Source of the DNA: an uncultured Paracoccaceae bacterium
GTDB taxonomy: Bacteria; Pseudomonadota; Alphaproteobacteria; Rhodobacterales; Rhodobacteraceae
Assembly: GCA_937883775.1 (NCBI GenBank)
Contig: CAKZXZ010000033.1
Coordinates: 1 to 38,253 of the forward strand
Length of the DNA: 38,253 nucleotides
Reading direction: 5' to 3'
Under the pieces are notes generated by a model. It ran no database searches. It was not told where the DNA came from and worked only from the letters and a program-made list of their open reading frames with translations. The position numbers and the translations under genes were made by a program. Shown piece after piece: positions 8,535 to 31,313 of the stretch (its first letter is position 1; each line of letters begins with the position of its first letter).

Positions 8535-9173
8535 TCAGCCCGACAAAGCAGGCTTCAAGTTTTTGGTAAAGATAATGTTGTTACCAACCGTCCCGTTCAC
8601 ACCGTACTTTTTGGCCTGATCGACTGTCAGAAGTGTGGATTGGAAACCAAGGTCCTCAAATGCTGTCTTTTGCATCTCTAGTATTTCGCTCAGCTGCCCT
8701 TCGTTGAGATCACTGCTTTTAGGAACACCATTCCAAGGCGCGATCCAAGCCCAGCCTTCTTTTACAACTAAATTATTGATTGCGTTGGCCATTTCTTTTT
8801 GCGCGTCTTCGTTGTAGCCAGTCCAATAAGCGTTCAGAGCGAATTTGTTCCATACGCCATCAAAGGTCTGATCGAAGTGAGCTTGTGGAAGTGCTTTAAG
8901 ATTTAACTCAAGTGTTTCAAAGCCTTTATATCGCCCCAGTTCAAGAACTGCTGGGTCAAAGTCGACGCCCATGCTTGTGCCGCCGTGAAGACGCGCCAAC
9001 TCGCCAAAGTCATATTGCCCTGGGCCAAGATCAAGATAATGGCCGTTCAATCGAACCCCTTGGAAGAAGTCAGATAGAATACTCTCAAAATGCGCCCGGG
9101 AGCGCTGCGGATCGCGAACATTTTTTTGCTTGGCGCCTTGAATGATTTTGATCTCGGCAGGGTCTGTCAGCAT
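8535..9173 (-). CDS. SAM-dependent class I methyltransferase-like protein
   Basis: A 212-residue protein with a Rossmann-type methyltransferase core: YLDLGPGQYDFGELA (46-60) fits motif I, and GVDFDPAV (69-76) supplies the acidic residue that binds the SAM ribose. The middle of the protein (FDGVWNKFALNAYW) sits where motif IV is expected. The substrate is unknown; the setting suggests a glycan or sugar nucleotide. AGGA lies eight bases before the ATG. It appears to be the last gene of a minus-strand unit neuB2-hisH-methyltransferase, with 36 bases between hisH and this gene. Its stop directly abuts the sulfotransferase stop on the opposite strand. The fold is fairly clear. The reaction is inferred. 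Confidence 0.72.
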   Translation of the reverse strand: MLTDPAEIKIIQGAKQKNVRDPQRSRAHFESILSDFFQGVRLNGHYLDLGPGQYDFGELARLHGGTSMGVDFDPAVLELGRYKGFETLELNLKALPQAHFDQTFDGVWNKFALNAYWTGYNEDAQKEMANAINNLVVKEGWAWIAPWNGVPKSSDLNEGQLSEILEMQKTAFEDLGFQSTLLTVDQAKKYGVNGTVGNNIIFTKNLKPALSG

Positions 9174-9209
9174 CTGCTTTTCCTATATGTTCCGGAATGC
9201 TTCGATTTC

Positions 9210-9821
9210 TCAAAGTTTCAAGAAGTTCGAGAGGATCGTCAAACCGGTCACTTCGCTTTTTTCCGGATGGAATTGACATCCATGAACGTTGTCACGTGTT
9301 ACCATGGATGAGAACAAGATCCCATACTCTGTTCGCGCAAGACTGTGTGCCTGATCCTTACAATCAAAGAAGTAGCTGTGAACGAAGTAGGCATGACTTT
9401 CCTCGGGCAAGTCGGAAACGAGGGGGTTCTGCTGATCAAGTTCCAACTCGTTCCAGCCAATGTGCGGGACGGGACGATTTCGAGCGCTTTCCAGTCGGCG
9501 CACCGTGCCTGGTATCAGTCCAAGGCATTCCTGACCGTTATCTTCATCAGAGAAATTAGCCAACAGCTGCATACCAAGGCAAACGCCGATAACTTGTTTA
9601 CCTGTTCTGGTGAACTCTGTGAGAGCATCTCCAAGACCTGTGCTGTTTAGCTCTGCCATTGCGTGGGATGCCGCGCCGACGCCGGGAAGGACCAGTCTGT
9701 CCTGCCCCGCAACCTGATCTGGATCCTTGACGATCATGACGTCTGCCCCGAGGTATTCGAAGGCATTTCGGAGGGACTTCAGATTCCCAATCCCGTAGTC
9801 GATCAGTGCGACGCCTGACAT
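9210..9821 (-). CDS. hisH: HisH-like glutamine amidotransferase of the sugar-amidation system
   Basis: The 203-residue protein is a class I glutaminase of HisH type: oxyanion strand PGVG (46-49), nucleophile Cys81 in GVCLGMQ, and His185 and Glu187 in FHPEKSE, so the triad is complete. It would release ammonia from glutamine for a HisF-like partner. No histidine genes are nearby, and the HisF-like partner, 4 kb away, lacks the cyclase aspartate. This setting therefore points to amidination of an N-acetyl sugar with the PseA/WbpG-type enzyme, as in Pseudomonas O-antigen and Campylobacter flagellin-glycan clusters. Its ATG shares one base with the stop of the upstream neuB-like gene (TGATG), so the two are translationally coupled. 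Confidence 0.9.
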   Translation of the reverse strand: MSGVALIDYGIGNLKSLRNAFEYLGADVMIVKDPDQVAGQDRLVLPGVGAASHAMAELNSTGLGDALTEFTRTGKQVIGVCLGMQLLANFSDEDNGQECLGLIPGTVRRLESARNRPVPHIGWNELELDQQNPLVSDLPEESHAYFVHSYFFDCKDQAHSLARTEYGILFSSMVTRDNVHGCQFHPEKSEVTGLTILSNFLKL

Positions 9822-10873
9822 CAGAAATGCGAAACAGTCAAAGCGTCACCCTCGGAAAGATCGGTTGAGAGGGGCTTTTCGTTCAGGATTACAAACTCGC
9901 TGTACGTAATACCGGTTCCCGGGCGTCGGAAGTCCACATCCTCAAGCTCAATCTTCTCCCCGGCAGCCATCGCGCGGCGCGCAAACGCGCTACGGCGCAC
10001 CTTGCTGCGGGCGATCACCTCCGCCTCGCTCAGCACTCGACGTTTTTGGCCGAGGGCAGGACGCACATTGCGAACTGCCTCCACAAAGGCTGCCGCTTCG
10101 TGAGGCTCCATTGACATGACGTGTTCGATGCTTGGCGTCGTACGATCCTCTGTAATGGTTTTTTCGATGAGGTTGGCACCGAGGACGACCGCAGCGATAT
10201 CCATCTCCCAGCCGGTACTATGGTCCGAGAATGCAACAGGCACATCGAACATTGATTTGAGAGTGCTGAGAATGCTGAGGTTCACGCCGTCGATACGGGC
10301 TGGATAACCGGTGGGGCAGTGATGAATGATGATATTCAAGTTACCCGTGGCCTTGATACAGTCCACAGCTTTCTCAATCTCTCCGAGAGATGCGTTACCG
10401 GTATCGAGCTGGATACAAAGTCCTGTTTTCGCTGCGTATTCGATGAGGCCAAGCTGATCGACATCCGCACTTGCGATTTTGATTGAATGAGCTCCAAGCT
10501 CCTGGACGAAATCAACCTCTTCCGGAAAGCAAACTGTTGCGAAGAATGCCAAGCCCAATGCATCGGCTTCTGCCTTTGCCTCGCGCCATTCATCAGCGGT
10601 CATCATACGTCGTTGAAGTGGTGCGATCAGGGGCTCGGTGACAGTTTCGGTCGTTCCGTCTTTTTTAAGGATCCCGTAGTCAATCGTCACAGTCGGATCT
10701 GCGATCAGTCGATCTGCGTCGATGATTTGGAATTTAATAGCATGTGCTCCGGCCTCTGCCGCGCTGCGGATCAATCGCTTTGCTGAATCTAAGCCGTTGT
10801 GGGTCGGGCCCGCTTCAAAGACGATGTAGGTTTCGTGCGCATCTCCGATTGGTGTTCCTGCTATTTCAATCAT
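9821..10873 (-). CDS. NeuB-family nonulosonic acid synthase paralogue (second NeuB)
   Basis: This 350-residue NeuB-family protein has a PEP-condensing TIM barrel (residues about 10-265) and a C-terminal antifreeze-like SAF domain (about 290-350). Barrel landmarks are EAGPTHNG, KFQ at 47-49, KIASAD at 132-137, HHCPTGYPAR and SDHSTG at 216-221. At the second Mn2+ ligand (His236 in Neisseria NeuB, EKHF motif) this protein has Thr239 in EKTITEDRTT. PseI in the same window keeps His at the equivalent position. The substrate is unknown, and activity with a metal is uncertain. The start was set at ATG 10871-10873; a longer frame begins at TTG 10909 but adds a non-family extension. It is coupled to hisH and divergent from the MDR dehydrogenase gene. 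Confidence 0.85.
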   Translation of the reverse strand: MIEIAGTPIGDAHETYIVFEAGPTHNGLDSAKRLIRSAAEAGAHAIKFQIIDADRLIADPTVTIDYGILKKDGTTETVTEPLIAPLQRRMMTADEWREAKAEADALGLAFFATVCFPEEVDFVQELGAHSIKIASADVDQLGLIEYAAKTGLCIQLDTGNASLGEIEKAVDCIKATGNLNIIIHHCPTGYPARIDGVNLSILSTLKSMFDVPVAFSDHSTGWEMDIAAVVLGANLIEKTITEDRTTPSIEHVMSMEPHEAAAFVEAVRNVRPALGQKRRVLSEAEVIARSKVRRSAFARRAMAAGEKIELEDVDFRRPGTGITYSEFVILNEKPLSTDLSEGDALTVSHF

Positions 10874-10993
10874 GATGTCGCGCTCTCTATTCTGCTGGTC
10901 TTTGAACAAGGTGTACGGTCTGGTATGCGCTTGGAGACATAGGCGTCAAGAAGCGAATAGAGATGCAGGAAACGAGGGGCAACGGAAGCAAGA
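10874..10993. promoter_or_regulatory. Divergent intergenic region between neuB2 and the MDR dehydrogenase gene
   Basis: This 120-base gap must hold the promoters of both units. On the minus strand TTGACG (complement of 10944-10949) is a fair -35 element, but the -10 at 17 bases spacing (10921-10926) is weak. No convincing plus-strand promoter is seen. No palindrome stands out. Confidence 0.3.
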
Positions 10994-12010
10994 ATGACTG
11001 ATTGGTTTTACCGATTGCGAGCCGAGCGACAGCTTGAGCGGATCGCGGATCAAAAGATATCTCTGGAGAGCGATGCCTTTGCGGCACAAACTGTTTTGTC
11101 GTGTATCTCTCCCGGGACAGAGACTGCCGCTTATGCGGCCTTAACGCCCTTGAGGGCGGGGGTTGACCGCTTCCCGCGGCTCATGGGCTATATGAACGTG
11201 GCTCGTGTGAGCGAAGCTGGTGAGGCAACATCAACATGTCCCGGCGACTTGGTATACACTCATAAACATCACTGCTCAGGCTTTGTCGGCAAGGACTCGG
11301 ATCTTTTGCTGAAGCTACGCGATGAGGATCTGTCGCTTGGAATTGAGGTTCTTTATCTTTACCGACTTGCACTGAATGCTGTTCGCAGGGGCAACGGCCA
11401 AGCGGGACAGGACGTTCTTATTCTAGGATCAGGAGCGATTGGTCTGGCAAGCGCTGATCTTGCTTATGCCTTGAGCATGCGCGCGAAAATTCTGTCAGAT
11501 CACGATCCCGTATCGGACAAATGTGTAGAACTTAATATTGCTCATTCCTCAAAATCCAAAGCGATTGACGAACTCGACAACATGACAGGGCGCCTTGAGG
11601 GTATCTGCGATCTTGTAATCGTTACCTCCAACACTTGGACAGACTGGCAGGTTGCGCTCCGCAGTGTTCGTTTCAACGGCACTATAGCGGTTCTTGGCTT
11701 CCCAGGACGAGGATTAATTGAAATCCCACGAAATCCTTTGGACTCAGCGTTTTTCTATGATCGTCAGATCACTATTGTGTCATGTGGTTTTGGCCAAGAT
11801 CAACCGATGGGTGCCGAAAACGAGATTGCGCCGCCCCAGACTTTGCAGAGCGACATGGCGTATCTTTTGGAACTGGCCAGAGCCAAGAGAATTCGCCCCA
11901 AGGGCCTTATCGGCACGATGATGGCTGCGACGGATTATCCGAACGCACTCGACACCTTGATTGGGTCGCGCGACTTCGCGGGTACGATTTCGCTGGATTG
12001 GTCTAGTTAA
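10994..12010 (+). CDS. MDR-superfamily (zinc-type alcohol dehydrogenase-like) oxidoreductase
   Basis: A 338-residue medium-chain dehydrogenase/reductase. The N-terminal GroES-like part contains SCISPGTETAAY (36-47), and the Rossmann domain starts with LILGSGAIGLASADLA (142-157), the NAD(P)-binding glycine loop. The set of four cysteines for a structural zinc is absent, and the SxISxGTE pattern resembles the BchC/threonine-dehydrogenase-like subgroup more than classic alcohol dehydrogenases. A role in oxidising or reducing a sugar hydroxyl or keto group is inferred from the neighbours only. It is a single plus-strand gene between two minus-strand units. Its last eight bases overlap the 3' end of the convergent glycosyltransferase-like gene. 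Confidence 0.8.
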   Translation: MTDWFYRLRAERQLERIADQKISLESDAFAAQTVLSCISPGTETAAYAALTPLRAGVDRFPRLMGYMNVARVSEAGEATSTCPGDLVYTHKHHCSGFVGKDSDLLLKLRDEDLSLGIEVLYLYRLALNAVRRGNGQAGQDVLILGSGAIGLASADLAYALSMRAKILSDHDPVSDKCVELNIAHSSKSKAIDELDNMTGRLEGICDLVIVTSNTWTDWQVALRSVRFNGTIAVLGFPGRGLIEIPRNPLDSAFFYDRQITIVSCGFGQDQPMGAENEIAPPQTLQSDMAYLLELARAKRIRPKGLIGTMMAATDYPNALDTLIGSRDFAGTISLDWSS

Positions 12011-13739
12011 AGAGATGTCCGAGGCGCTTTTGCAGCCAGGATTTCTTTAGCCGTCGCTTTGGGGGCTTTTGTTGTTCGCGTTCAAGCCTCTTTCCGTAAA
12101 GGCCATCGTCGTTTTTCATCGCCGAGGATGTAAGGGGTAGGGCCTCGCGTCTTACCTTTTCAGCCAAGCCAACTGTCGCCCAAAGGTCTTCCACTGATAC
12201 GGAAACGGCGTCTTCGTTGACGCCAGTCCCAGACTTACCTGTTTTGAGGCCTGTTTCGATAAGCTCGGATAGCCCGCCGGCCGTTTCACTAAAACCAAGC
12301 AGGCCGAGTTCGATCTCTTCCCTGAAAAGTGGAAATCCTGCTTCGTGACAGATCGCGGATGGTACGCCAAAGGCCAAAGCTTCGCGAACAGAGGTCGAGA
12401 ATGGTGTAATGTGATAGTCTGCGACAAACAGGGCTGTTTGCAATTGCACCAAAGTGACCTGATCAATTTCGAAGCTGACGCCGTCGATGTTTGCCAGTCG
12501 GTCGCGGATTTGTTGTTCGGCTTTCTCGGGGCGATGAATCGGATGAAGGCGGATCATCCAGTGCAAATCCAGTCGTGCCTCGATCAGGTCGAACAACATC
12601 AGTGGCATCAGCGGATCAATTGCATAGCTAAGTGTAATCAGAACGCATTTTTTGTCTCTTTTCTGAGACAGGAAGGTCTTGTCTGCGTCGGGAAGCTCCC
12701 CGTTGGATTTGCTTGCGATCCAGCTTGCCACACCCCGGTGCCCGCCAACTGACGGGAGATGCCTGCTTCGCGCTGCTCCCGGATTCCATGGAAGCGCATG
12801 GTTTAGATTTTGCTTACCCCACAGCCAGAAAACGTCGGGCAGGAGATGATAGCCGGTTTCAGGGAAACGAGCGTAATGCGTGCTTGGGAAATGGATTGGG
12901 CCCTGGCCGCCATGCTGAACATCTATGACCGGGATACCGAGGTCTTTCGCCGCCCACAGCGCATGCATCCAACCTGTGAAAGAAGACACCACGATTGTTC
13001 TGGGCTTCAGAGCGCGAAAAATCTCAAAAAAGAAGTCTCGTCTCTCTCTCAGCCTGTCAATTCGAGACAGGACTTGGTTACTGGTGATCTTCCAATCGGG
13101 CCATCTGACCGCCGCGTAGTCTATGATCTCATTCAGCGAGGCCCTTACGGCAGGATTCGCCTCTTCTTTGGTCCAACTATGGCAGGCGAGGTAGGCATCT
13201 GCATCAATCTTTAGAGGTGTGTGAACAAAGTCGATATCACATGGTTCGATCGCCAAGCGAACGACACTGCTGCGTTCCGATAAATCAGATGAAATCGGGT
13301 CGAGGATCGGAGCAAAGTAACCGTCTTGCTTCTTCAGATAGTACTTTTCGATTTTGGTTAGGACTGCGAAGTCTGACCCAGAATGGCGCTTCATCGTTTC
13401 GAGGTCGGTTTGAAATCGGGCTTGAGATGCGTCAAAGTTGGTACGTGCAAGCTTAGCATGCTCCCTGATCAGTTGGCTGCGCTCATGTTTGTTCCTCGGC
13501 ATCCCGATGATCGGACCGGCTTGCGGCTGGTCTGCTTCGTTGACGTTCCCGAGCTTGCCCGCATCTGTCAGGACATCGCTGTACTTGAAGCTTCGACCCA
13601 GTTGAAGTCGTACAAGGGGCCAAAGATGTACGTCATAATGGACAAGGGCATTCACATCAAACTTCGTTTCGATCTCGTTGAAGAGTTCGGTCAGGAAGGC
13701 ATGGTCCTTGATGGTGTCAACTTGAGTTGACTTCATCAT
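12003..13739 (-). CDS. Large GT-B-like surface-carbohydrate biosynthesis protein
   Basis: A protein of about 578 residues from ATG 13737-13739, two bases from the stop of the hisF-like gene; the open frame extends to 13928 but that part lies inside hisF. The first 230 residues are family-specific and helical. The later part looks like a GT-B fold: IVVSSFTGWMHALW, then VQHGGQG (274-280), the typical HGG loop of capsule-type transferases, WLWGKQN, MIRLHPIHRP, and TPFSTSVREALAFGVPS near 455-475, which resembles the donor-binding region of such enzymes. The C-terminal tail is basic (KKPPKRRLKK-like). As the last gene of the pse operon it could transfer the CMP-nonulosonate or another sugar. The exact activity is unknown, and no standard DxD motif stands out. 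Confidence 0.7.
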   Translation of the reverse strand: MMKSTQVDTIKDHAFLTELFNEIETKFDVNALVHYDVHLWPLVRLQLGRSFKYSDVLTDAGKLGNVNEADQPQAGPIIGMPRNKHERSQLIREHAKLARTNFDASQARFQTDLETMKRHSGSDFAVLTKIEKYYLKKQDGYFAPILDPISSDLSERSSVVRLAIEPCDIDFVHTPLKIDADAYLACHSWTKEEANPAVRASLNEIIDYAAVRWPDWKITSNQVLSRIDRLRERRDFFFEIFRALKPRTIVVSSFTGWMHALWAAKDLGIPVIDVQHGGQGPIHFPSTHYARFPETGYHLLPDVFWLWGKQNLNHALPWNPGAARSRHLPSVGGHRGVASWIASKSNGELPDADKTFLSQKRDKKCVLITLSYAIDPLMPLMLFDLIEARLDLHWMIRLHPIHRPEKAEQQIRDRLANIDGVSFEIDQVTLVQLQTALFVADYHITPFSTSVREALAFGVPSAICHEAGFPLFREEIELGLLGFSETAGGLSELIETGLKTGKSGTGVNEDAVSVSVEDLWATVGLAEKVRREALPLTSSAMKNDDGLYGKRLEREQQKPPKRRLKKSWLQKRLGHLFN

Positions 13740-13740
13740 C

Positions 13741-14529
13741 TTATCTGTTCCCTGGTCTAAAAGAGCGACCCTCATTTCTGATCTCAAAACCTTCCTCGGC
13801 GAGGTACGTCTTGGCGGATCGTGTTGCATGCTCTTTGTAATGAAAGATGTTGGCAGCTGCGACAGCGCTTGCGCCGGACTTATACCCATCAGCGAGATGT
13901 TTCCAGAACATGACACCCCCGAAGGCAATCACAGGGACCGAAACACGTTCGGAGACGTCTTTTAGGATCGGTAGGTTATACCCTCGACGAGCACCATCAT
14001 GCTCAACCGAGTTCAAGAAGATTTCTCCCGCTCCAAGCCCTACAACGCGTTCCGCCCAGTCGGCGGGACCATGCTCCACAATTCTGCGGGCACGATCGAC
14101 AGCGATGTACTGTTTACCGTCTTCTGTGCATTTGGCATCGATTGAAGCAACTATACACTGCTGCCCGTATCGTTTTGAAAGCCGCTGGACCAATTCAGGA
14201 TCATCTTCGAAAGCGGTGTTTAAAACCAGTTTATCTGCGCCGGCCTTCAAAAGACGATCTGCTTTTTCGTCATCGGTGATCCAACCGCCAATCGACAGTG
14301 GCACAAAACATCTTCTTGCGGTTCGGTCTACGAGTTCTACGAAAGTGTCTTCGGCTGGTTTACTTCGAGAAACATCGAGTAGGACGATCTCATCAACAGA
14401 CCAACGACTAAATGTTTCAATTGCATGTATAGGATCGGAATGAATTACATTGGTGTGCTTGAACCGTACGCTTTGGACGACGGTGCCATCGCGAATGATG
14501 ATAACAGCAATGAGTCTTTTCTTTAGCAT
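13741..14529 (-). CDS. hisF: HisF-like amidation-system protein (WbpH type) lacking catalytic Asp11
   Basis: The 262-residue TIM barrel aligns along its whole length with HisF: MLKKRLIAVIIIRDG at the start, LSIGGW, GADKLVLNT, QQCIVASIDAK and GAGEIFLNSVEHDGAR. The two catalytic aspartates of imidazole glycerol phosphate synthase behave differently. The Asp130 equivalent is kept (Asp131), but Asp11 is Ile11. It is therefore unlikely to make histidine and fits the WbpH-type role of guiding HisH-derived ammonia to a sugar amidotransferase. The start at 14527-14529 overlaps the pseI stop by seven bases; an upstream ATG (14550) would add seven non-family residues. The next gene starts one base after its stop. 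Confidence 0.9.
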   Translation of the reverse strand: MLKKRLIAVIIIRDGTVVQSVRFKHTNVIHSDPIHAIETFSRWSVDEIVLLDVSRSKPAEDTFVELVDRTARRCFVPLSIGGWITDDEKADRLLKAGADKLVLNTAFEDDPELVQRLSKRYGQQCIVASIDAKCTEDGKQYIAVDRARRIVEHGPADWAERVVGLGAGEIFLNSVEHDGARRGYNLPILKDVSERVSVPVIAFGGVMFWKHLADGYKSGASAVAAANIFHYKEHATRSAKTYLAEEGFEIRNEGRSFRPGNR

Positions 14530-15578
14530 GGTTGGTTGAGCATATCCCAAGCCAAAGGTTCGCCGCGCTGTATATCACGCGCCGCCGTACTGGTTAGGAC
14601 TTCGTCATAGTATTTGGGTGCAAGACCGAATGCCGGGCGGATCGAGCGGATATTTGCAGATGTGAGCCCGTCGCCTTTTTTGATGTCTTCAACCGCATAT
14701 AGTGAGCGACGAAAGCGCAGATTTCCGGCTTCTGATGCCTTGTTGCCGTACTTTACTGTACCAAGTGCTTCGGCTGCTTGATTGACACTTTCAACAAGTG
14801 CTGAAAACTCGCTCGGTTCCAGCGAGAACTCGGCATCAGCTCCTCCGTCCGCGCGCGAGAGTGTCAGGTGTTTTTCTAGCATTGTCGCTCCCAATGCGAT
14901 TGCGGCCGGAGCAACGCCGATCCCTGGTGTATGATCGGATAAACCTACCTCGACATCAAAGCGTGCCTTTAGGTCCGCGATTGTTGAGATATTTGCGTCT
15001 GATACAGGAGCCGGATATCCACTGATGCAATACAGCAAGCCAAGGCTTTCGCACCCTGCCTTGCGGGCGATACTCACAGCATCCTCGATCTCCGCGGGTT
15101 TCGCCATACCTGTCGACATAATAATAGGTTTGCCTTTTGATGCGACATGTCGGATCAGCGGAATGTCGACCAATTCAAAAGACGCGATCTTGAAGGCCGG
15201 CACGCCAAGCTCATCAAGGAAATCAACAGATTTAGGGTCGAAGGGAGAGCTGAAAACGGTCAGTCCGAGTTTGCGACAGTGGTTGAAGAGTGTCTCATGC
15301 CAGTCCCACGGAGTCGCAGCCTCGGTATAGAGATCGTAAAGTGTTCTCCCCGCCCAAGGACCGTTCTTGATATGAAAGTCCTCCCGATCACTATCAAGCG
15401 TGATGCTGTCCGCAGTATAGGTTTGGAGTTTTAATGCAGAGGCGCCGGCCGACGCTGCCGCATCGCAGATACGTTTCGCACGCTCGAGATCATTGTTATG
15501 ATTTGCAGAGAGTTCAGCGATAACGAAGGGTGGTTTCCCTCGCCCGATGCTGCGTCCATCAATCTCAAATGTTGCCAT
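14523..15578 (-). CDS. pseI: Pseudaminic acid synthase (PseI)
   Basis: A 351-residue NeuB-family synthase that condenses PEP with 2,4-diacetamido-2,4,6-trideoxy-L-altrose to give pseudaminic acid. The N-terminal TIM barrel has FVIAELSANHN (18-28), KLQTYTADSITLD, MSTGMA and SDHT (214-217). EKHLTLSRADGGADAEFSLEP (235-255) is the PseI signature and retains both Mn2+ histidines (216 and 237). The SAF domain follows from about 280 (RRSLYAVEDIKKGD). It sits between pseGH (41 bases upstream) and the hisF-like gene (overlapping), in the same order of functions as the Campylobacter pseA-pseI region. Confidence 0.94.
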   Translation of the reverse strand: MATFEIDGRSIGRGKPPFVIAELSANHNNDLERAKRICDAAASAGASALKLQTYTADSITLDSDREDFHIKNGPWAGRTLYDLYTEAATPWDWHETLFNHCRKLGLTVFSSPFDPKSVDFLDELGVPAFKIASFELVDIPLIRHVASKGKPIIMSTGMAKPAEIEDAVSIARKAGCESLGLLYCISGYPAPVSDANISTIADLKARFDVEVGLSDHTPGIGVAPAAIALGATMLEKHLTLSRADGGADAEFSLEPSEFSALVESVNQAAEALGTVKYGNKASEAGNLRFRRSLYAVEDIKKGDGLTSANIRSIRPAFGLAPKYYDEVLTSTAARDIQRGEPLAWDMLNQPC

Positions 15579-15619
15579 GCTCTGTTTTCCGGTACCGCAA
15601 TTTGTTGGTTGGATTTACT

Positions 15620-16987
15620 TCATCTCTCTCTTTGGAGCCAGCCGTTTTTGAGCAGGTATCCCGCACGCTGGAAAAGGGCCTTTGATGCGGTGTTATCGGG
15701 CGAAACATATGCAATCAGTTTTAGTCTCGGCACGAGTGAACTCAGTAAGTTGAGAGCAGCCAGACCGACCCCATCTCCCCTGACGCGGTCCAGCAGATAA
15801 ATGGAAACTTCCATAGCGTTGGACATGGCATTCGTTGGTGACAACCTGACATTGCCGCATGGCTGATTGTCAACAAGGATGATTTCAGAGATAATCTGCG
15901 GATTGGATAGGGTTTGAGAAAACCAATTGCAATGGTCTTCCCAGCTTGGAGGTTCTGGGTTTCGAGCGAACTGTCTGACGCTTGGTTCGCACTGCCAGTT
16001 AAAGACAAGCTTTCTGTCTTCGGCCACCATCGGTCTGAGGTAGACTGCTTGCCCGGATTTGGTCTTCGGACCTGTGAGGTGATTTGCAATCCGACCTGCG
16101 CCTAGCCCATCCGTCAAACATGACAAAGATGTCGCGATGGTTCCCAATTTTGTGTGTTCTCGAAAGAGGATTTTGCAATCGTTGACCACGTCGTCAATGA
16201 AGGTCGGGTTGCCCAATTGATGCGGTGTGATCCCTGTCGCTTCTTTATAGATCTGACCATTCTGGTTCTGGTTCTCTGCCGTTTGGACAGCCAGAGTAGG
16301 TTTTGCGAGTGTTGACGATTCCCAAAAACCTCCTCCCAACGCACTGATGATAAATTCATTTTGTTGAATGTTTTTAGCGACCTCTAAAGCTGAAAGCTGC
16401 TGGAGGAGAATGGCGTTGTTCGGATCAACTGTCGCTTCCAGCTGACTTGTTAGGCACGATACCTCGAATCCCGCCTTATGAAGACCAGCGCATAAGGCCG
16501 CTTCGTGATCGGAGACCTGCCCGCCGCCAAGCGAAACGAGAACTGTGTTCGGGTTTGGTTTCCTTGTTTTCAACCGTTCCTCGAAGAACACGTCTCGTAA
16601 GGGAATGTACATAGCACCTGCAAGATGGTCGGGTGCCGTTCTGATACTGGTGCCGAAAAGGTCGATCCTAAGATCGCAGGCTAGAGATATGTGCTGGTCG
16701 GGAAAGTCACAAATCAACGCGGATCGCGTCTTTGAACCGAAGCGACCAAGCTCAATATCTGTGGAATAACTATCTGTCACTATCCAGTCATAGTTTTTGT
16801 CCGGAAGAGATGAATATCGATCGCGAAAAACACTATCACCGACCCAGGAAGGTAAAGGATTTTGGCTTGAACTGATCAGATCGCATGGGAATTCCTTTTC
16901 ATTTAAGCATTGCGCAAGAGAGACACAGCGCGCCAAATGACCAAAGCCGATGTCATTGCCGAATTCGAGCGCGAAGCCAACTTGCAT
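15620..16987 (-). CDS. pseG: Fused PseG-PseH: UDP-6-deoxy-AltdiNAc hydrolase / PseH-like GNAT acetyltransferase
   Basis: The 455-residue protein joins two pathway enzymes. Residues 1-305 are PseG-like: IGFGHLARC with His17 at the exact position of the catalytic histidine in Campylobacter PseG, LVSLGGG (150-156), ISALGGGFWESSTLAKP (214-230) and the TAENQ loop. This half removes UDP to release the free sugar. Residues about 313-455 are a GNAT acetyltransferase (VYLRPMVAEDRKLVFNW, then DRVRGDGVGLAAL as the acetyl-CoA loop and NTASKALFQRAGY), matching PseH, which acetylates N-4 before hydrolysis. The linker is short and no internal stop or start splits the frame. The gene lies one base after pseF and 41 bases before pseI. 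The fusion supplies both otherwise missing steps. Confidence 0.92.
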   Translation of the reverse strand: MQVGFALEFGNDIGFGHLARCVSLAQCLNEKEFPCDLISSSQNPLPSWVGDSVFRDRYSSLPDKNYDWIVTDSYSTDIELGRFGSKTRSALICDFPDQHISLACDLRIDLFGTSIRTAPDHLAGAMYIPLRDVFFEERLKTRKPNPNTVLVSLGGGQVSDHEAALCAGLHKAGFEVSCLTSQLEATVDPNNAILLQQLSALEVAKNIQQNEFIISALGGGFWESSTLAKPTLAVQTAENQNQNGQIYKEATGITPHQLGNPTFIDDVVNDCKILFREHTKLGTIATSLSCLTDGLGAGRIANHLTGPKTKSGQAVYLRPMVAEDRKLVFNWQCEPSVRQFARNPEPPSWEDHCNWFSQTLSNPQIISEIILVDNQPCGNVRLSPTNAMSNAMEVSIYLLDRVRGDGVGLAALNLLSSLVPRLKLIAYVSPDNTASKALFQRAGYLLKNGWLQRER

Positions 16988-16988
16988 C

Positions 16989-18766: not shown

Positions 18767-18767
18767 A

Positions 18768-20057
18768 TCAGAGTGTCAAAGGTGTTGGGCTTTTGATATC
18801 GAGTGCATACTCGCCGCGTGCCTTGGGGAGATTTTCAGGGTTGTAAAAGATCGCCCGATTTTCCGGTCCGAAGGTTCGCAGATCGACCTGTTCAATACGT
18901 GCAGCCTCATTAGATGTATTCATGCGTGCTGACACAACCGAAGCGTTTGGGACCCATTTGCCGTTCTTTTTCTCCCAGATATTCTGATCGCGCATAGGTT
19001 CTACCCATTCGTAGAACTGCTTTTTTGTGATGCCCATGAAATCGCAATAATGTCCGAGCGTTGATGGGGTGTTTGCATCATAGAGTCGGACCTGTTCGAT
19101 ACCTTCCTCACGAGTCATTCTACCGTGCCGGATTTCAATGCTGGCGTCATCTGTTGCGCGACCGTAACCAAATTTGAGGTACTTCAAGTAATCATGTACG
19201 TCGTTTGCATGATCTTCGATCTTTGACATCAAGCTGAATGTGCGTTCGCGTTGATAGGTGATCGTACCGAAATCCCACTCATTTATCATCTTGATGCCTT
19301 GGGTTTGGGCGTCCCAGGGGAAAAAGTTGGATAGGTAGATGCCGCGGATTTCTGCGCGACCGATTTCCTCGTCGGATGGGTAAATGTACGGTCGGATGTC
19401 GTGTTCGGTGATGCCACTATGTCCGACGAGGTCTTCCGGCTCGAAGCCTCGCATGTCATGTTCTTTTCGGGTCCATTTTGTGAATTCGACAAAGTCTTCC
19501 AAAGAGACAATGCCGGTAAGTTCAGCGAAACCATGTTCACCCCAAACGATAAGGGGAATATTATATTTGACCGCAATCTGAAATGGGAAGGTCCGAATGC
19601 CCGCATGATAGTGCCACGTCAGATCCCCTACTGTTTGCAGCATGTGACGTGATATTTTCCGCACGGAGTCCAGACCAGCCGTATAGCGTATTAGGTCGCA
19701 GCCTGATTTGCTGACCAAATTGTCCAGATTGCGGTGACCGGCCGGGGTATTGAAGGCATGGTTGAATGTAACCAGAAGTGGGTTAAGCCCGTAGACTTCT
19801 TTCAACAGCCAGACTTGGAAATGGCTGTCTTTTCCGCCGCTTACCGGGATGATGCAATCATGACTGTTCCCTAGACGTTTGCGCATTCGTCTGGCTTCGT
19901 CGATGATGTCTTCAAATACCAATTTGCGCTCATCCCAATCGATTTCGAGATGCTTGCGGCTTTCATGATATCTACAGCCACTGCATACGCCCTCATCATC
20001 GAAGATAATGGTCGGTTTGGCATTTTCAGGATACAGGCACCTTGCGCAATACCGCAT
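18768..20057 (-). CDS. pseA: N-acetyl sugar amidotransferase (PseA/WbpG family)
   Basis: This 429-residue protein has two CxxC pairs (Cys4/Cys7, Cys25/Cys28) that form a zinc site and the PP-loop ATP pyrophosphatase motif SGGKDS at 73-78. Further conserved patches are FNHAFNTPAGHRNLDNL and the WGEHGFAELTG segment. Members adenylate an N-acetyl group and use ammonia from HisH/HisF to form an acetamidino group. Campylobacter PseA does this for pseudaminic acid, and WbpG acts on ManNAc(3NAc)A. The HisH and HisF partners are both present in the window. AGAGGA lies six bases before the ATG. Given its place in the pse operon, pseudaminic acid is the favoured acceptor, but the wbpABDE product is a real alternative. 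Confidence 0.92.
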   Translation of the reverse strand: MRYCARCLYPENAKPTIIFDDEGVCSGCRYHESRKHLEIDWDERKLVFEDIIDEARRMRKRLGNSHDCIIPVSGGKDSHFQVWLLKEVYGLNPLLVTFNHAFNTPAGHRNLDNLVSKSGCDLIRYTAGLDSVRKISRHMLQTVGDLTWHYHAGIRTFPFQIAVKYNIPLIVWGEHGFAELTGIVSLEDFVEFTKWTRKEHDMRGFEPEDLVGHSGITEHDIRPYIYPSDEEIGRAEIRGIYLSNFFPWDAQTQGIKMINEWDFGTITYQRERTFSLMSKIEDHANDVHDYLKYLKFGYGRATDDASIEIRHGRMTREEGIEQVRLYDANTPSTLGHYCDFMGITKKQFYEWVEPMRDQNIWEKKNGKWVPNASVVSARMNTSNEAARIEQVDLRTFGPENRAIFYNPENLPKARGEYALDIKSPTPLTL

Positions 20058-20093
20058 AATTTTTCCTCTTCGTGGTGGAAGGTGTCAAATGGA

Positions 20094-22493
20094 CTAGGTG
20101 TCCTGAGAGAGGCGTTGTTTTATCTGGTCATCAGTCAGGGACTTCAGAGATCCCCAGTCGATAGCCTTAGGCACACGCTCTAGTCGGGAAGCGAGTTCAT
20201 TGTCAATTGCCACACGGTCTTGCTCGTCAAGCGCCAACAAGATCGAGGGCATTGTCGGAGGCCTAGTTTCGGTCAGTATGGGAGGCGATAACTCGTCCAA
20301 AGACATTAGGTTGATGCCGATATCGAGGAGTTTCTTGGGCACTTCTTCCTCGGTTGACGACAGCAGCATTGTCACGCGACCGAACCCAAGACGCGCCAGT
20401 CGCAAAACATCTTCTGTCAAACTTTGGGGATCCCGGATGGGCGCTCTCAAAAGGAGTCCGACGTTTTCTTTGAACAGTGCTGGTTCTAGCTTGACCACTT
20501 CTTGATCTTTGCGCAGCTTACGAAGGGTAATCTTGCGAAAAGATAATTCGCGTTCCGTCTCGGCGACGGGAGCTGAAAGAGCGATGCGAAACGCTACGCC
20601 TGAAGCGCGAACTCGAAAACGCCAATCTTGCGAGCCCTCGGATAGACGAGCTTCAAGCCTTTTGAACTCCAGACGGTCTCCAACGGCATCGTATATGGTG
20701 ATTGCGAGTTGCCAATGGCCTATAAGCTTCAGGTTTTTGATATCTAGCAGAAAAGTTGTTCCGCCCGAATTGGGAATATCGAATTTGGTGTTTGATCTTC
20801 GCGCTGCCAAAGTTCGTTTTTTGCGACCCAGGCCGCGTAAACCGATCTGCAAGATAGCTGGCGCGCCCGCTTCAACCGAAGCTCGACCCATCTTATAGGT
20901 CATTTTCTTTGAAGATGGCAGGCAGGCAAGTGATCGTGACCAAGGAAGTCGCGTCCAGCGATATTTTTCGAGTTGCTTCTCCGTCGTCTTTGTCTTGACA
21001 GAGAGGGCGTTCAGAGTTGACCCCGCCGCGGATCCGTTTGGGAGTAGTCGCGCTATGCTTTCCTGATCGGCTTCTGATAATTGACTGATGTGGCTGATAT
21101 CATTGAACTTACCAGCATTTCGCTTTTCGCCGAAGATTGGTTTGGCGAGAAGCGGATAAAACGCCAAGCCGATGGATCGGTAGAAGCTCGCTAGTGCGTT
21201 GATGTCAGATGTGATTTTGTCGAGTTCAATGACTTTTACGTCAGGCGTTAGTTCTGCCTGAGCGCGACAGTACCGGATGTAGTGCGCAATCTTTTCGACT
21301 TGAGACAGGGAGCCCCAGTCAGTTCCGGGGATTGTTGGTCGGGCACTATCATCCTCTGTTTCATACCAGCCGCGGTTATAAAGAGACAGAAGGACTTGCT
21401 CTGGGTTGCGCCTTAGCGATACGTAAGAAGCATCGTCATTGAGTTGTCTAAGTTGAGTTGTCACGAGGGGTAGATAGACGTTGCATTCCAAAACATCGTC
21501 TTTCGATTGATCGAACCAGTCCCTTCGCTCACTCAGCAGCCTCGCCACTTCTTCATCGTTTGCCACGAGCGCATCAATCTGGTGATCGGTTCGTTTTTCG
21601 GGAACCAACCCACCATCTTTCAGGCGTGCGTTCAAAGTGGTTTCATGTAAGCCCCGTGCGTTTGTGGCGGATGCCGTCATATTGGCTAACCAAGTAGAGC
21701 CGCTGCGTGCTGGCGACAGAACAAAGACCTGTCTAGGGGGGGCGCGCCAATGGATCGGATGAACCAAAATCATTGTTCGGCCCGAAGCTATGTCCGGGAC
21801 CGTCATGGGGTCAGGTGATCGTGTCCAGTTCCCACCGCTGTCGGTATAATATCGGTCCCAGTTGACCCGATGGGCCAGAAATTCCGTCTCACATTCTTCT
21901 AGCGTATTTGCCCATAGTTTCGTCGTTTCACCATCCTCTCGGACAAGCCCATCCGACGGAGGTCTCAAAATCTGGTAGTTCGAATCTGTGACAGGGATGC
22001 CCTCTGCACTCAGACACGTATCCGATGTTTCGAGGGGGTCTTCCGAGGCGAACATCCAGAAATTTGGCGCACCATGAGTATAGCATAGCCTGTCACCGTG
22101 AGCAGCAGCACCCTTTGCATTACCGCCCAAAGCGCGCAACCTTCCAAGAGCATCCATGTAATCTTCTTTTGGAGATTGCGCACGGCCAGCCAGCCAGTTG
22201 GCGATGGAGTTGAAATGCAGCCCGACCTCATGACCGAAAGCAAGCAGTTGTTTTACTTTCACGTCAAATTGGGGGTCGTCCCAATACGGGGTTGAATTCA
22301 ATAAATAGTAGGTTGCTTTCAGGCCCTTCTGATGCTCCCAAAATGCCATCTCAAGAGCGACATCAAGCGAGTGATCAATATCGTGTCTTAGGGCGATAAG
22401 GTCGGTTTTTTCAGGCTTGGACCACATCTCATCAACAGTGCATGTTGACCCGAAGTGGTCCATCAAATCGAAGTACTTTTTATTCAGCGTCAT
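20094..22493 (-). CDS. NodB-like deacetylase-family / sulfotransferase multidomain protein
   Basis: A 799-residue protein with an unusual arrangement. Residues 1-250 resemble the NodB polysaccharide deacetylase fold: LIALRHDIDHS (32-42) for the catalytic Asp motif, GHEVGLHFN (87-95), AAAHGDR and ILVHPIHW at the end of the barrel. Residues 254-510 are a sulfotransferase domain with VFVLSPARSGSTWLAN (256-271) as the PAPS loop and YVSLRRNPEQVLLSLYNRGW (357-376) as the 3'-phosphate motif. Residues about 520-690 look beta-rich and basic, and 690-799 form a further unrecognised domain. It may couple N-deacetylation with N- or O-sulfation of a glycan, in the manner of animal heparan NDST enzymes, but this is inference. 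It lies 36 bases upstream of pseA. Confidence 0.75.
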   Translation of the reverse strand: MTLNKKYFDLMDHFGSTCTVDEMWSKPEKTDLIALRHDIDHSLDVALEMAFWEHQKGLKATYYLLNSTPYWDDPQFDVKVKQLLAFGHEVGLHFNSIANWLAGRAQSPKEDYMDALGRLRALGGNAKGAAAHGDRLCYTHGAPNFWMFASEDPLETSDTCLSAEGIPVTDSNYQILRPPSDGLVREDGETTKLWANTLEECETEFLAHRVNWDRYYTDSGGNWTRSPDPMTVPDIASGRTMILVHPIHWRAPPRQVFVLSPARSGSTWLANMTASATNARGLHETTLNARLKDGGLVPEKRTDHQIDALVANDEEVARLLSERRDWFDQSKDDVLECNVYLPLVTTQLRQLNDDASYVSLRRNPEQVLLSLYNRGWYETEDDSARPTIPGTDWGSLSQVEKIAHYIRYCRAQAELTPDVKVIELDKITSDINALASFYRSIGLAFYPLLAKPIFGEKRNAGKFNDISHISQLSEADQESIARLLPNGSAAGSTLNALSVKTKTTEKQLEKYRWTRLPWSRSLACLPSSKKMTYKMGRASVEAGAPAILQIGLRGLGRKKRTLAARRSNTKFDIPNSGGTTFLLDIKNLKLIGHWQLAITIYDAVGDRLEFKRLEARLSEGSQDWRFRVRASGVAFRIALSAPVAETERELSFRKITLRKLRKDQEVVKLEPALFKENVGLLLRAPIRDPQSLTEDVLRLARLGFGRVTMLLSSTEEEVPKKLLDIGINLMSLDELSPPILTETRPPTMPSILLALDEQDRVAIDNELASRLERVPKAIDWGSLKSLTDDQIKQRLSQDT

Positions 22494-22557
22494 ACTGCCC
22501 AGGCTCAGTTCTTTACAAAGCCCATCCTTTCTTAAAACATGGTGGTGTGAAACCTGC

Positions 22558-23538
22558 TTAAAAGGCTAAGGTCACATTTTTCCAGAGTGAGTCTGACGGA
22601 TCGCGTTGATGCTGTGCGAGTATATCGTCATACCAAGCCGTGCCGGTGAACCTTTCCGAGATATTGAAGTCAATGTCATAGTACTGTGGATGCAGCAGAA
22701 TTCTATATCTGCGGCCGGGCTCCATTTTCTCAAACAGCCGTCGAAGATCGCGACCTTCCGGATCTCTCGCTGGAGAGTTGTGCCCGCCATCACTGAAGGA
22801 TCCGGCAAAACGGAGGCTGATCCCATTATGTACCCAGATGGCCTTTTTGCGCCAGGCCGGATGGTATGGAAGGCCGTTATTATTGCGCCCGTCTTGATCG
22901 GGGACGCCGCCATGAGCTGAGAAAAAACGTACTCCAAATCTAGTGTTCAGCGCAGTCATATCCTCATCGAAGACCTTCAGCGCGCGCTCGACATCAAATC
23001 CTGCAAGCTCGTAAGCGTTGGTATGGTAGCCAATCACGAATCCCCTCTTCTGGGATGATTTTAGGAGCGCTTCGTCCAAGTCATACTGAGTTGTTCTCAC
23101 TACTCCAGTATTTTTCAAGTGACGCCGGTCGATGCGACGGTTGAATATCATGATATTGGCTGGAACGGCGGCGTGCGTCTCCTCCTTAAGCAAGCCGTGC
23201 AATCGTTCGGGGCGACTATCGATGTCATACTGAAGAAAGATATGTGCTTTGGGGGCTTTGGCGGGATCTGCTTTGACTTTCTTTGTCCAGTGGCTGTACT
23301 CGCTTGGGTAGTTCAGCCGAGCATCTTCCAAGGTAGGAAATTCTAAGTCTTCATAGGTGCTTACAGATAGTTTGTCGTTGTTTGCCTCAATGAACCTGAA
23401 CATGTCTGTGAGATATCGCCGTGGGAAATAAGAACCACTCTTGCCCGAAAGATCCTGATCGGTAGCTCCTGGCTCTTGGAACGGGTTATCGTTTGACGCT
23501 GAGAGCGCATCTGGTCGGGATCTGTTTGCATCTGTCAT
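22558..23538 (-). CDS. NodB-like polysaccharide deacetylase-family protein
   Basis: A 326-residue protein from ATG 23536-23538, preceded by GGGAG eight bases upstream; a GTG nine codons earlier is less likely. It resembles the first domain of the next gene: IFLQYDIDSRPE (DID motif), FVIGYHTNAYE, FFSAHGG and YRILLHPQYYDID match HDID, VGLHFN, AAAHGD and ILVHP there. The canonical second zinc histidine of NodB (HxxxH) is not evident, so the metal site may differ. The N-terminal 40 residues are Ser/Asp-rich and look disordered. It is the first gene of the long minus-strand pse operon and divergent from pseB. The substrate is unknown, and a deacetylase function is not proven. Confidence 0.68.
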   Translation of the reverse strand: MTDANRSRPDALSASNDNPFQEPGATDQDLSGKSGSYFPRRYLTDMFRFIEANNDKLSVSTYEDLEFPTLEDARLNYPSEYSHWTKKVKADPAKAPKAHIFLQYDIDSRPERLHGLLKEETHAAVPANIMIFNRRIDRRHLKNTGVVRTTQYDLDEALLKSSQKRGFVIGYHTNAYELAGFDVERALKVFDEDMTALNTRFGVRFFSAHGGVPDQDGRNNNGLPYHPAWRKKAIWVHNGISLRFAGSFSDGGHNSPARDPEGRDLRRLFEKMEPGRRYRILLHPQYYDIDFNISERFTGTAWYDDILAQHQRDPSDSLWKNVTLAF

Positions 23539-23570
23539 GGCTGGTTCTCCCGCACCTTCTGTCACTGAAT

Positions 23571-23600
23571 TCTATATGCGAAAGCAAATCCACCAATCAA
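23571..23600 (-). promoter_or_regulatory. Candidate promoter of the minus-strand pse operon
   Basis: On the minus strand TTGATT (complement of 23595-23600) and TATAGA (complement of 23571-23576) are separated by 18 bases and would place a transcript start about 25 bases before the ATG at 23538. The full gap between this gene and pseB (23539-23692) must also drive pseBC on the other strand; only a weak TTGAGC at 23633 is seen there. Confidence 0.35.
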
Positions 23601-23692
23601 GCAGGTGGTCATCGGTTAAATAGGTTTCGGCCTTGAGCAACTGATCAGATGTGGGTAGTCCGGAGGAACTTCTATGGGTTAGGAATTACAGG

Positions 23693-24724
23693 ATGAGTCT
23701 GACGAAGCTCTTTGGTCATAATGTTTCTTTCGATAACCAGTCGGTTCTGGTGACAGGGGGGACCGGGTCTTTTGGTAAAACCTTCGTCGACTATCTGCTC
23801 AAGAAGCATTCGCTCAAACGACTGATTATCTTCTCACGAGATGAGCTGAAGCAGTTCGAGATGCAGGCAGCATACCCGCGGGAAAAATATCCAAATCTTC
23901 GCTTCTTCATTGGGGATGTACGCGATCCAGAACGGATGCGAATGGCGACCAAAGACGTCGATCTGATTGTGCATGCCGCGGCGCTCAAGCAGGTCATCGC
24001 GATGGAATATAATCCGTTTGAGTGCATCCAGACCAATATCATGGGCGCGCAAAATATCGTGACGGCAGCCTTGGAAAACAATGTCAAGAAGGTTTTGGCG
24101 CTTTCAACAGACAAGGCGGCAGAACCGATCAATCTTTATGGGGCCAGCAAGCTTGCCTCTGACAAGATTTTCACGGCGGCGAACAACCTTTCGTCTAAGG
24201 ATGGGCCTAAATTCTCCTGTGTCCGTTATGGTAATGTTATCAGCTCACGCGGTAGCGTTGTTCCATTCTTTTCGGAGTTGATCGCGAAAGGCACCGACCA
24301 TCTTCCGATCACCCATGAGGAGATGACCCGATTTGTTATCACGCTGGATCAGGGAGTTTCGTTTGTCTGTGCGGCGATCGAAGTGATGCGTGGTGGAGAG
24401 TTGTTTATTCCGAAGATCCCGAGCGTCCGGATCATGGATCTTGCAGAGGCGATGGCCCCAGAGCTTGAACGGCGTGTGGTTGGTATACGACCCGGTGAGA
24501 AACTTCATGAAGTTCTTTTGCCGGCCGCTGCTGCTCATGTGTCTCTTGAAACGAATGAATACTACATCATCAAGCCAGAGCTTGCCTATCAAGAATACGA
24601 AGCGCCGGTATCGCCTGTTTTCGAACCAGTAGATCCGGCATTCAGTTATGCCAGCGATAACAATCCCAAGTTTCTAAGCGTGCCAGAGATCAGAACCGTG
24701 CTAGGTGACCTAGGACTTTTCTAA
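23693..24724 (+). CDS. pseB: UDP-N-acetylglucosamine 4,6-dehydratase, inverting (PseB)
   Basis: The 343-residue SDR enzyme performs the first pathway step, 4,6-dehydration with 5-epimerisation of UDP-GlcNAc. Seen are GGTGSFG (22-28) for NADP, SRDELKQFEMQ (48-58), which is the PseB/FlaA1 signature, the catalytic Asp140-Lys141 (STDKA) and Tyr149-x3-Lys153, then RYGNVISSRGSVVPFF, PKIPSVRI and GIRPGEKLHE. The length matches the family. The start used is ATG 23693 with AGGA at 23681-23684; a GTG at 23651 would add an unrelated leader. AAALKQV replaces the more common AAAMKHV. The gene is divergent from the rest of the pse operon and 14 bases ahead of pseC. Confidence 0.95.
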   Translation: MSLTKLFGHNVSFDNQSVLVTGGTGSFGKTFVDYLLKKHSLKRLIIFSRDELKQFEMQAAYPREKYPNLRFFIGDVRDPERMRMATKDVDLIVHAAALKQVIAMEYNPFECIQTNIMGAQNIVTAALENNVKKVLALSTDKAAEPINLYGASKLASDKIFTAANNLSSKDGPKFSCVRYGNVISSRGSVVPFFSELIAKGTDHLPITHEEMTRFVITLDQGVSFVCAAIEVMRGGELFIPKIPSVRIMDLAEAMAPELERRVVGIRPGEKLHEVLLPAAAAHVSLETNEYYIIKPELAYQEYEAPVSPVFEPVDPAFSYASDNNPKFLSVPEIRTVLGDLGLF

Positions 24725-24738
24725 GAGGATTTGCAGTC

Positions 24739-25935
24739 TTGGCAAAGACACTTCCATATGGTCGTCAAAGTGTTACTGAAGCGGATATCAATGCCGTTGT
24801 CGATGTTTTGCGGGGACCTTTCTGGACGACCGGTCCGAAGGTTTTGGCCTTTGAGGAAGCCTTGGCCGAGGTCACAGAAGCCGATCATTGTGTTTCTGTA
24901 TCTAACGGAACAGCGGCGCTTCAGATACTCTACCAGGCAGCCGGTTTAACCTGTGGGGATGTGATCATCGTCCCTGCAATAACCTTTCTTGCCACTGCAA
25001 ATGCCGCCGAATTCCTAGGCGCGCGTGCAGTCTTTGCAGATGTCGATCCACAGAGTGGCTTGATGACCCCGGAGACTTTTGCGGCTGCGATTGATCGATA
25101 TCCCGAAGCGCGATATGCGGTTGCTGTTCATTTGAACGGGCGAAGCTGCGACATGCAAGGACTTGCAGAGTTGGCTCATGCCAATGACGTCATGCTGTTT
25201 GAGGACGCCGCACATGCTCTTGGTTCACAAACAAGAGCTGACAATGAAGTCGTGCCGGTCGGTAAGAACGCATTCTCCGCAGGGAGTTGTTTCTCATTTC
25301 ATCCGGTGAAGACGGTTGCGATGGGCGAGGGCGGCGCTATTACGTTCCAAGATGCAGCAACAGCTGAACGGGCAAGGCTACTGCGAAGTCACGGGATGTC
25401 GCGCAACAAAAACACTGCGCACGAACTGCTGTTGGATGATGACGGGCAGCTGGAACCTTGGTGTTATGTGATGGATCAGCCAGGGCACAATGTTCGTGTG
25501 ACGGATATTCAGTGTGCCCTTGGGTTGTCACAGCTAGCGCGGTTGCCGGAGACGATCGAAATCCGTCGTTGTCATGTTCAGCAGTATAACGAACGGTTTG
25601 CTGATCACGCCGAGTTGGTCTTTCCAGTTGCATCGGAAGATATCGATGTCACGACATGGCATCTATATCCGATCTTATGTCAGGCAGGTCGGGCCGCACG
25701 AGCGGCACTGTATAGAGCGTTGAGGGATCAGCACATCAATCCGCAGATCCACTATATTCCTCTGCCGCTACAACCTTACTTTAAGGGCCGTTGTGATATG
25801 AACCAGATTCCAGGTGCCATATCATATTATGAGCGTTGCCTTTCGCTTCCACTTTACGTTGGTCTGACACCAGAAGACATAGACCGTGTCGCGGATACGG
25901 TTATCGACTTTCTTGAGGTGTTCTCAGAACCGTAA
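24739..25935 (+). CDS. pseC: UDP-4-amino-4,6-dideoxy-N-acetyl-beta-L-altrosamine transaminase (PseC)
   Basis: A 398-residue DegT/DnrJ/EryC1-type PLP aminotransferase acting after PseB. PYGRQSVTEADI at the start, TTGPKVLAFE, VSNGTAALQILY, FEDAAHALGS (154-163) and CFSFHPVKTVAMGEGG with the PLP lysine at 191 are all typical of PseC. The start is TTG 24739, with AGAGGA nine bases upstream; no ATG lies near enough to restore the conserved N-terminus. The last 35 bases overlap the 3' end of a convergent methyltransferase gene. With PseB it forms a two-gene plus-strand unit. Confidence 0.94.
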   Translation: MAKTLPYGRQSVTEADINAVVDVLRGPFWTTGPKVLAFEEALAEVTEADHCVSVSNGTAALQILYQAAGLTCGDVIIVPAITFLATANAAEFLGARAVFADVDPQSGLMTPETFAAAIDRYPEARYAVAVHLNGRSCDMQGLAELAHANDVMLFEDAAHALGSQTRADNEVVPVGKNAFSAGSCFSFHPVKTVAMGEGGAITFQDAATAERARLLRSHGMSRNKNTAHELLLDDDGQLEPWCYVMDQPGHNVRVTDIQCALGLSQLARLPETIEIRRCHVQQYNERFADHAELVFPVASEDIDVTTWHLYPILCQAGRAARAALYRALRDQHINPQIHYIPLPLQPYFKGRCDMNQIPGAISYYERCLSLPLYVGLTPEDIDRVADTVIDFLEVFSEP

Positions 25936-31303: not shown

Positions 31304-31313
31304 GGAACGACAC

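Follow-up and report, generated by a model that had tools for sequence, protein, structure and literature searches.

A second NeuB-family protein encoded in a putative acetamidino-pseudaminate island of a Rhodobacteraceae contig

Gene content of the island

The window analysed here is the whole of contig C33 (38,253 bases), from a genome of 3.66 Mb in 269 contigs, and it carries genes for the enzymes of pseudaminic acid (Pse) synthesis, genes for a three-protein amidotransferase, and a gene for a second protein of the NeuB family, designated NeuB2, which is the principal subject of this work (Table 1). The guanine-plus-cytosine (G+C) fraction is 0.49-0.53 across about 7.5-30 kb and 0.58-0.62 in most of the flanking DNA, and it is this difference, of approximately 50% against 58-62%, which leads the region to be read as an imported island. 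It lies between a multisubunit cation antiporter operon on one side and an ABC transporter on the other, and is, as judged from its composition, a horizontally acquired surface-glycan island in a Rhodobacteraceae contig. An earlier reading of the window made from its letters alone (the sequence-only reading) described the genome as roseobacter-like, a description which is borne out in that a NeuB2 genome of the same family, G039, is Donghicola mangrovi B5-SW-15 (Rhodobacteraceae). The two divergent units described in the same reading do not match the layout, because a plus-strand gene for an oxidoreductase of the medium-chain dehydrogenase/reductase (MDR) type divides the minus-strand genes into two groups (12003-23565 and 8535-10873). 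The gene list of that reading lacked NeuB2, and with it the association of this PseA/HisH/HisF set with NeuB2, and its range did not extend to the WbpA-WbpB-WbpD-WbpE set, which bears on the interpretation.

The E-values of the assignments for the pse genes, the amidotransferase trio and the Gfo/Idh gene rule out chance. PseB and PseI pass their curated cut-offs, and PseC, PseG, PseH and PseF are in each case the best-scoring NCBIfam family, at a score under the curated cut-off. The protein in which PseG and PseH are fused also has a weak match to PDB entry 3hbm, a UDP-sugar hydrolase, and an identical fusion arrangement is found in clusters L020, L028, L034 and L052. In PseI the metal-binding His is present in the motif EKH, and the motif KIASF contains the Phe which, when it follows KIAS, marks the synthases of the Pse pathway (PMC7371886). 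The sequence-only reading had proposed a full set of enzymes leading from UDP-N-acetylglucosamine (UDP-GlcNAc) to CMP-pseudaminic acid (CMP-Pse), accompanied by a dedicated amidotransferase trio, and the family assignments support this set, with each of the pse genes located where that reading had placed it. The pathway would proceed from UDP-GlcNAc through PseB, PseC, PseH, PseG and PseI, in that order, to PseF. It is likely that the island makes CMP-Pse; the final sugar and its acceptor, like the catalysis and the substrates of the individual enzymes, are predicted from the families to which the proteins belong.

Table 1. Features of the window, with the family evidence for each (PLP, pyridoxal phosphate).
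Feature	Position	Strand	Evidence
PseB, UDP-GlcNAc 4,6-dehydratase (inverting)	23651-24724	+	TIGR03589 484.8 bits, cut-off 407.75 (passed)
PseC, PLP aminotransferase	24739-25935	+	TIGR03588 393.7 bits, top family, cut-off 423.5 (slightly under)
PseG-PseH fusion, UDP-sugar hydrolase and GNAT N-acetyltransferase	15620-16987	-	TIGR03590 at residues 2-245, 74.9, cut-off 153.6 (under); TIGR03585 at residues 317-448, 42.4, cut-off 93.1 (under)
PseI, canonical pseudaminic acid synthase	14523-15578	-	TIGR03586 492.7 bits, cut-off 340.25 (passed)
PseF-like CMP-pseudaminate cytidylyltransferase	16989-17678	-	TIGR03584 129.9 bits, top family, cut-off 205.7 (under)
NeuB2, second NeuB-family protein	9821-10873	-	PF03102 5.7e-61; C-terminal SAF 4e-4
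PseA/WbuX-type N-acetyl sugar amidotransferase	18768-20057	-	TIGR03573 340 bits, cut-off 203.2 (passed)
HisF/WbuZ-like ammonia-channel barrel (putative)	13741-14529	-	WbuZ top family 226.6, cut-off 299.7 (under); HisF 206.9; AglZ/HisF2 194.8, cut-off 310 (under)
HisH glutaminase	9210-9821	-	TIGR01855 223 bits, cut-off 105 (passed); one-base overlap with NeuB2
WbpA-WbpB-WbpD-WbpE set for UDP-GlcNAc3NAcA	30008-33933	+	Complete; nucleotide-sugar dehydrogenase 426.5 bits; WbpB 3oa2 4.9e-111; WbpE 3nu7 4.5e-106; acetyltransferase 3mqg 4.5e-65
Gfo/Idh/MocA oxidoreductase	17675-18766	-	PF01408 2.1e-12; homologues in L020 and L052 clusters
MDR (zinc-dehydrogenase-like) oxidoreductase	10994-12010	+	PF00107 weak, BchC weak; homologues in L020 and L052 clusters
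Unclassified protein (590 residues), probable glycosyltransferase	12003-13775	-	Weak Glyco_trans_4_4 (0.013), BFO_1060 (0.0047)
Two-part protein (800 residues), weak sulfotransferase segment mid-protein	20094-22493	-	PF13469 6.8e-4 (under cut-off); 37% homologue in L020
Sulfotransferase	7656-8534		PF13469 1.3e-23
Unclassified protein	22558-23565	-	No family at E<=0.04
Methyltransferase-like protein	8535-9173	-	PF08241 0.0045 (under cut-off)
Methyltransferase	25901-26677	-	PF08241 2.2e-21

NeuB2 and its linkage to pse genes

NeuB2 scores under the equivalog cut-offs of both the PseI family (195.6 against 340.25) and the NeuB family (234.6 against 399.65), and when genomes of bacteria and archaea are scanned its relatives stand out as a clearly delimited set, 47-59% identical, with the next proteins below 40%. 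Residue equivalences were taken from an alignment to the NeuB of Neisseria meningitidis (NmNeuB), and in NeuB2 residue 1 is the Ile that follows the start Met. All 47 sequences of the NeuB2 clade, from bacteria and archaea, have Thr for His236 of NmNeuB, Glu for Asp247, Asp for Ser154 and Thr for Asn29, whereas among other NeuB proteins His236 is kept in 79/79 and Asp247 in 99%. The equivalents of Glu25, Lys129, Tyr186, His215 and Arg314 are kept in NeuB2, and the catalytic residues are invariant or nearly so across the set. In a phylogenetic tree the clade makes up one side of a branch whose support in the Shimodaira-Hasegawa-like approximate likelihood ratio test is 81, or 100 when long branches are removed, and the motif pair FEAGPTH...EKTIT serves as a sequence marker with which NeuB2 clusters can be located.

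These replacements fall in part on the metal site. Two His residues coordinate Mn in NeuB (PMC7591256), and NeuB2 keeps one of them (His215) and has Thr in place of the other (His236). The H245A variant of Caulobacter NeuB retains partial activity (PMC7591256), and since H245 appears, from residue spacing, to correspond to His236, the loss of this His need not abolish catalysis. The AlphaFold2 model of NeuB2 (pLDDT 95.2) has an intact fold which superposes over its full length on NmNeuB with a Z score of 36 (1XUU/2WQP). In the wider comparison with canonical NeuB, PseI and SpsE (1XUU, 8H2C, 1VLI) the fold is equal, with Z scores of 34-36 and a full-length match for NeuB and PseI, and NeuB2 differs in having the four replacements listed above and a beta-hairpin at residues 62-80, which corresponds in part to a gap in all other NeuB proteins. 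Binding of the sugar at its C4-C6 end involves positions 70-85 in NmNeuB (PMC7371886), and most NeuB2 sequences have Ala or Gly at the position associated with C2 specificity, where PseI has Phe. As far as alignment and model can tell, the metal shell and the sugar-binding loop of NeuB2 are rebuilt, and the barrel and the C-terminal SAF domain are kept.

The linkage of NeuB2 to pse genes was evaluated in 24 well-flanked loci (7 kb or more of sequence to either side) and in 23 control NeuB loci. PseB is present in 21 of the 24 NeuB2 loci, PseC in 22, PseF and PseG in 20 each, and another NeuB in 21; PseB, PseC and PseG are found together in none of the 23 controls, a comparison in which recall is better for the NeuB2 loci because the hidden Markov models were built partly from them. 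Five of 397 other Pseudomonadota genomes, drawn independently, have NeuB2, which in four cases lies beside pse genes. NeuB2 is mostly not adjacent to pseI and in many clusters is located between pseC and pseF, and the genes for NeuB2, HisH, HisF and PseA are contiguous in 11/42 loci. At the level of whole genomes, at least one further NeuB accompanies NeuB2 in 24 of 25, many of which have exactly two in total; only an archaeal bin of 1.4 Mb has none besides NeuB2. The best whole-cluster relative of the window is L020, in a Hyphomicrobiaceae bin, which shares PseA, Gfo/Idh, PseF, PseGH, PseI, NeuB2, HisH, HisF, the 590-residue protein, a methyltransferase, a Capsule_synth protein and the MDR enzyme.

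Individual clusters show further features. Two PseF-type cytidylyltransferases adjoin NeuB2 and PseI in L042 and L044, an arrangement that the activation of two nonulosonic acids would lead one to expect. The betaproteobacterial NeuB2 clusters L021 and L023 have a formyltransferase-like protein (L021:15621-16286 and L023:15590-16240) between pseG and pseI, at the expected place of pseH, with PF00551 matches of 1.5e-11 and of 1.5e-5 (the latter just under the cut-off), and the product of these clusters may be N-formylated. At L109 (G345:C1:3904.7-3905.8 kb), in a one-contig genome, stops break the NeuB2 frame within a pse cluster that is otherwise complete.

The possible functions of NeuB2 are ranked with a second synthase first, a partner subunit of PseI second and some other reaction third. 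That NeuB2 is a second phosphoenolpyruvate (PEP)-dependent synthase with another sugar substrate is, from its sequence, a serious possibility whose chance is put at a little under even, and the two synthases would then yield either two related ulosonic acids or one that is differently N-substituted. NeuB dimers are domain-swapped, so that each capping domain completes the active site of the partner, and a heterodimer of PseI and NeuB2 could alter the choice of substrate or the rate. Such a partner or regulatory role would suit the presence of another NeuB in 24/25 NeuB2 genomes and in 21/24 well-flanked loci, the frequent total of exactly two, the lost metal ligand and the weakness of the SAF domain that is nevertheless kept, but it is considered unlikely, given that the catalytic residues of NeuB2 are themselves strongly conserved, that it has a rebuilt substrate loop of its own, and that it usually lies apart from pseI. 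A degenerate and functionless duplicate might be suspected from the loss of the metal ligand and from the interrupted copy in G345; strict conservation of the replacement residues across bacteria and archaea, together with the intact fold and the conserved gene order, makes this highly improbable. The candidate explanation of NeuB2 as a pseudogene was rejected on conservation.

The amidotransferase trio, its substrate and the accessory genes

The PseA/WbpG-type amidotransferase, the HisF-like protein and the HisH glutaminase named in the sequence-only reading were all recovered at the positions it gave, and PseA and HisH pass their cut-offs. The SGGKDS motif of the PP-loop and four N-terminal Cys residues can be read directly in PseA. 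Aligned with HisF structures and with the HisF of the host itself, which retains the cyclase residue Asp11, the HisF-like protein has Ile at that position; the Asp is likewise gone from the related HisF proteins of other NeuB2 clusters. Contigs C131/C143 of the host genome encode another HisF and another HisH, this HisF being divided over two contig ends, and because separate copies exist elsewhere and Asp11 has been lost, the HisH and HisF of the cluster are, on sequence grounds, taken to be dedicated amidotransferase partners that are extra to the copies of the histidine pathway. By analogy with the WbuZ and HisF2 families, the cluster HisF is more in keeping with a role as an ammonia channel than as a cyclase. 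HisH would free ammonia from glutamine, the HisF-like barrel would relay it without cyclase chemistry, and PseA would activate an N-acetyl group with ATP, with an acetamidino group as the result. An acetamidino-pseudaminate pathway is likely, with its product predicted from the genes.

The PseA of the window is 70-77% identical to the counterpart gene in many NeuB2 clusters, and this type of PseA is found inside the pse clusters of other phyla (66-77% identity for PseA and 54-63% for HisF). It was found only beside NeuB2, often in the order NeuB2-HisH-HisF-PseA. Among the 397 other Pseudomonadota genomes it occurs in two (67-68% identity), both times adjoining NeuB2, and the remaining amidotransferases of that sample are at most 41% identical to it. 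Searches of plasmids yielded only distant relatives of PseA and NeuB2 (up to about 36%). Six of 296 other Rhodobacteraceae genomes (L110-L115) have distant amidotransferase genes (31-37%), several of them adjoining NeuB-type genes, without NeuB2.

The trio could in principle act on a different sugar. In other bacteria WbpG, HisH2 and HisF2 amidate the di-N-acetylated uronic acid ManNAc3NAcA, to which the product of WbpA, WbpB, WbpD and WbpE can lead. A complete set of these four enzymes lies 10 kb from the trio, and PseA and WbpG are both members of the TIGR03573 family. Amidation of such a uronic acid in place of pseudaminic acid is nonetheless improbable, since the trio is located among pse genes in the window and a matching trio lies inside pse clusters of other phyla. 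In addition, a search for WbpB in 18 genomes showed that 12/13 of those with PseA of the window's type together with NeuB2 lack any relative of WbpB at E<=1e-15, the exception being G309 (one relative, 30% identical), so that the trio does not depend on that sugar, which favours a nonulosonic acid as the substrate. A ManNAc3NAcA-type substrate was mostly rejected on this survey.

Among the accessory genes, the 590-residue protein has a 45% identical homologue beside HisF in L020 and is a candidate transferase for the sugar; an AlphaFold model of it made from two sequences was too poor for use (pLDDT 39). A protein of about 585 residues without a Pfam match directly follows pseI in L021 (17322-19073) and also in L026, L028 and L038, with mutual identities of 37-45%. 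The Gfo/Idh gene of the sequence-only reading is confirmed, and of its sulfotransferases the separate gene is solid, while the segment within the 800-residue protein is weak and other parts of that protein are unassigned. Its NodB-like proteins, one of which is the unclassified protein at 22558-23565, are not supported by Pfam, even with the threshold relaxed to E<=2.

Interpretation and comparison with known systems

The interpretation which is favoured, with modest confidence, is that the imported island makes CMP-Pse, that the dedicated trio carries out the amidination, and that NeuB2 acts in the same pathway, probably as a second PEP-dependent synthase on a different sugar of that pathway. 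Several considerations weigh against it. NeuB2 is almost never alone, which also fits a partner subunit; the window has a single cytidylyltransferase, which a second nonulosonic acid would need to share; the nearby WbpA-WbpB-WbpD-WbpE set offers an alternative acetamidino substrate; PseC, PseG, PseH and PseF all score under their curated cut-offs; NeuB2 was compared with part of the described NeuB paralogues; and the chemistry of the source strain is read from genes alone. It is proposed, more tentatively still, that NeuB2 represents a hitherto unrecognised class of ulosonic acid synthases, in which the active site has been rebuilt and is perhaps metal-independent or differently metallated, that the pathway with its two synthases extends over many phyla and yields an undescribed surface sugar, and that amidotransferases of the window's type are specific to this variant.

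Nonulosonic acid pathways are usually predicted on the basis of one NeuB per pathway, and a widespread second NeuB in pse clusters implies that some of the bacteria predicted to produce pseudaminate probably make another product, or an additional one. NeuB2 also provides a direct test of metal use by ulosonic acid synthases, and for roseobacters an amidinated sialic-acid-like surface sugar is now a concrete prediction. The open-access literature searched yielded neither a report of a second NeuB in pse clusters nor one of pseudaminate in Rhodobacteraceae, which is not proof of novelty. The pathway identified in the sequence-only reading is sound and is a fairly ordinary addition to what is known; it is the second synthase that makes it a variant.

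The acetamidino-pseudaminate genes of Campylobacter jejuni (pseB, pseC, pseF, pseG, pseH, pseI, pseA and relatives of hisH and hisF) represent the same enzyme families as far as CMP-Pse, together with a PseA-type amidotransferase whose likeness is at the level of the family. The window differs in its fused PseG-PseH, in a second NeuB that belongs to another clade and in the added MDR and Gfo/Idh enzymes, and no Maf was identified in it. C. jejuni has three NeuB proteins, one for each pathway (PMC7591256). In Legionella pneumophila the O-antigen locus of serogroup 6/12 brings together CapD, DegT, PseG, a cytidylyltransferase, HisF4, HisH2 and NeuB (PMC3694923), and the title of a reference cited there names a 5-acetamidino-7-acetamido nonulosonic acid in the lipopolysaccharide of non-1 serogroups. 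In contrast to the window, the Legionella locus lists one NeuB, with a class III aminotransferase and an aldo/keto reductase in place of NeuB2. The group I flagellin glycosylation islands of Aeromonas carry inserted genes in the interval from pseC to pseF (PMC7874193), which is where NeuB2 lies in many clusters, but what is found there is an aldo/keto reductase, and a second NeuB is not reported. With the WbpA-WbpB-WbpD-WbpE and WbpG-HisH-HisF systems of Pseudomonas aeruginosa and Bordetella the window shares both the four-enzyme set and an amidotransferase trio of the same family, whereas the trio of the window's type sits with pse genes, and does so also in genomes without WbpB.

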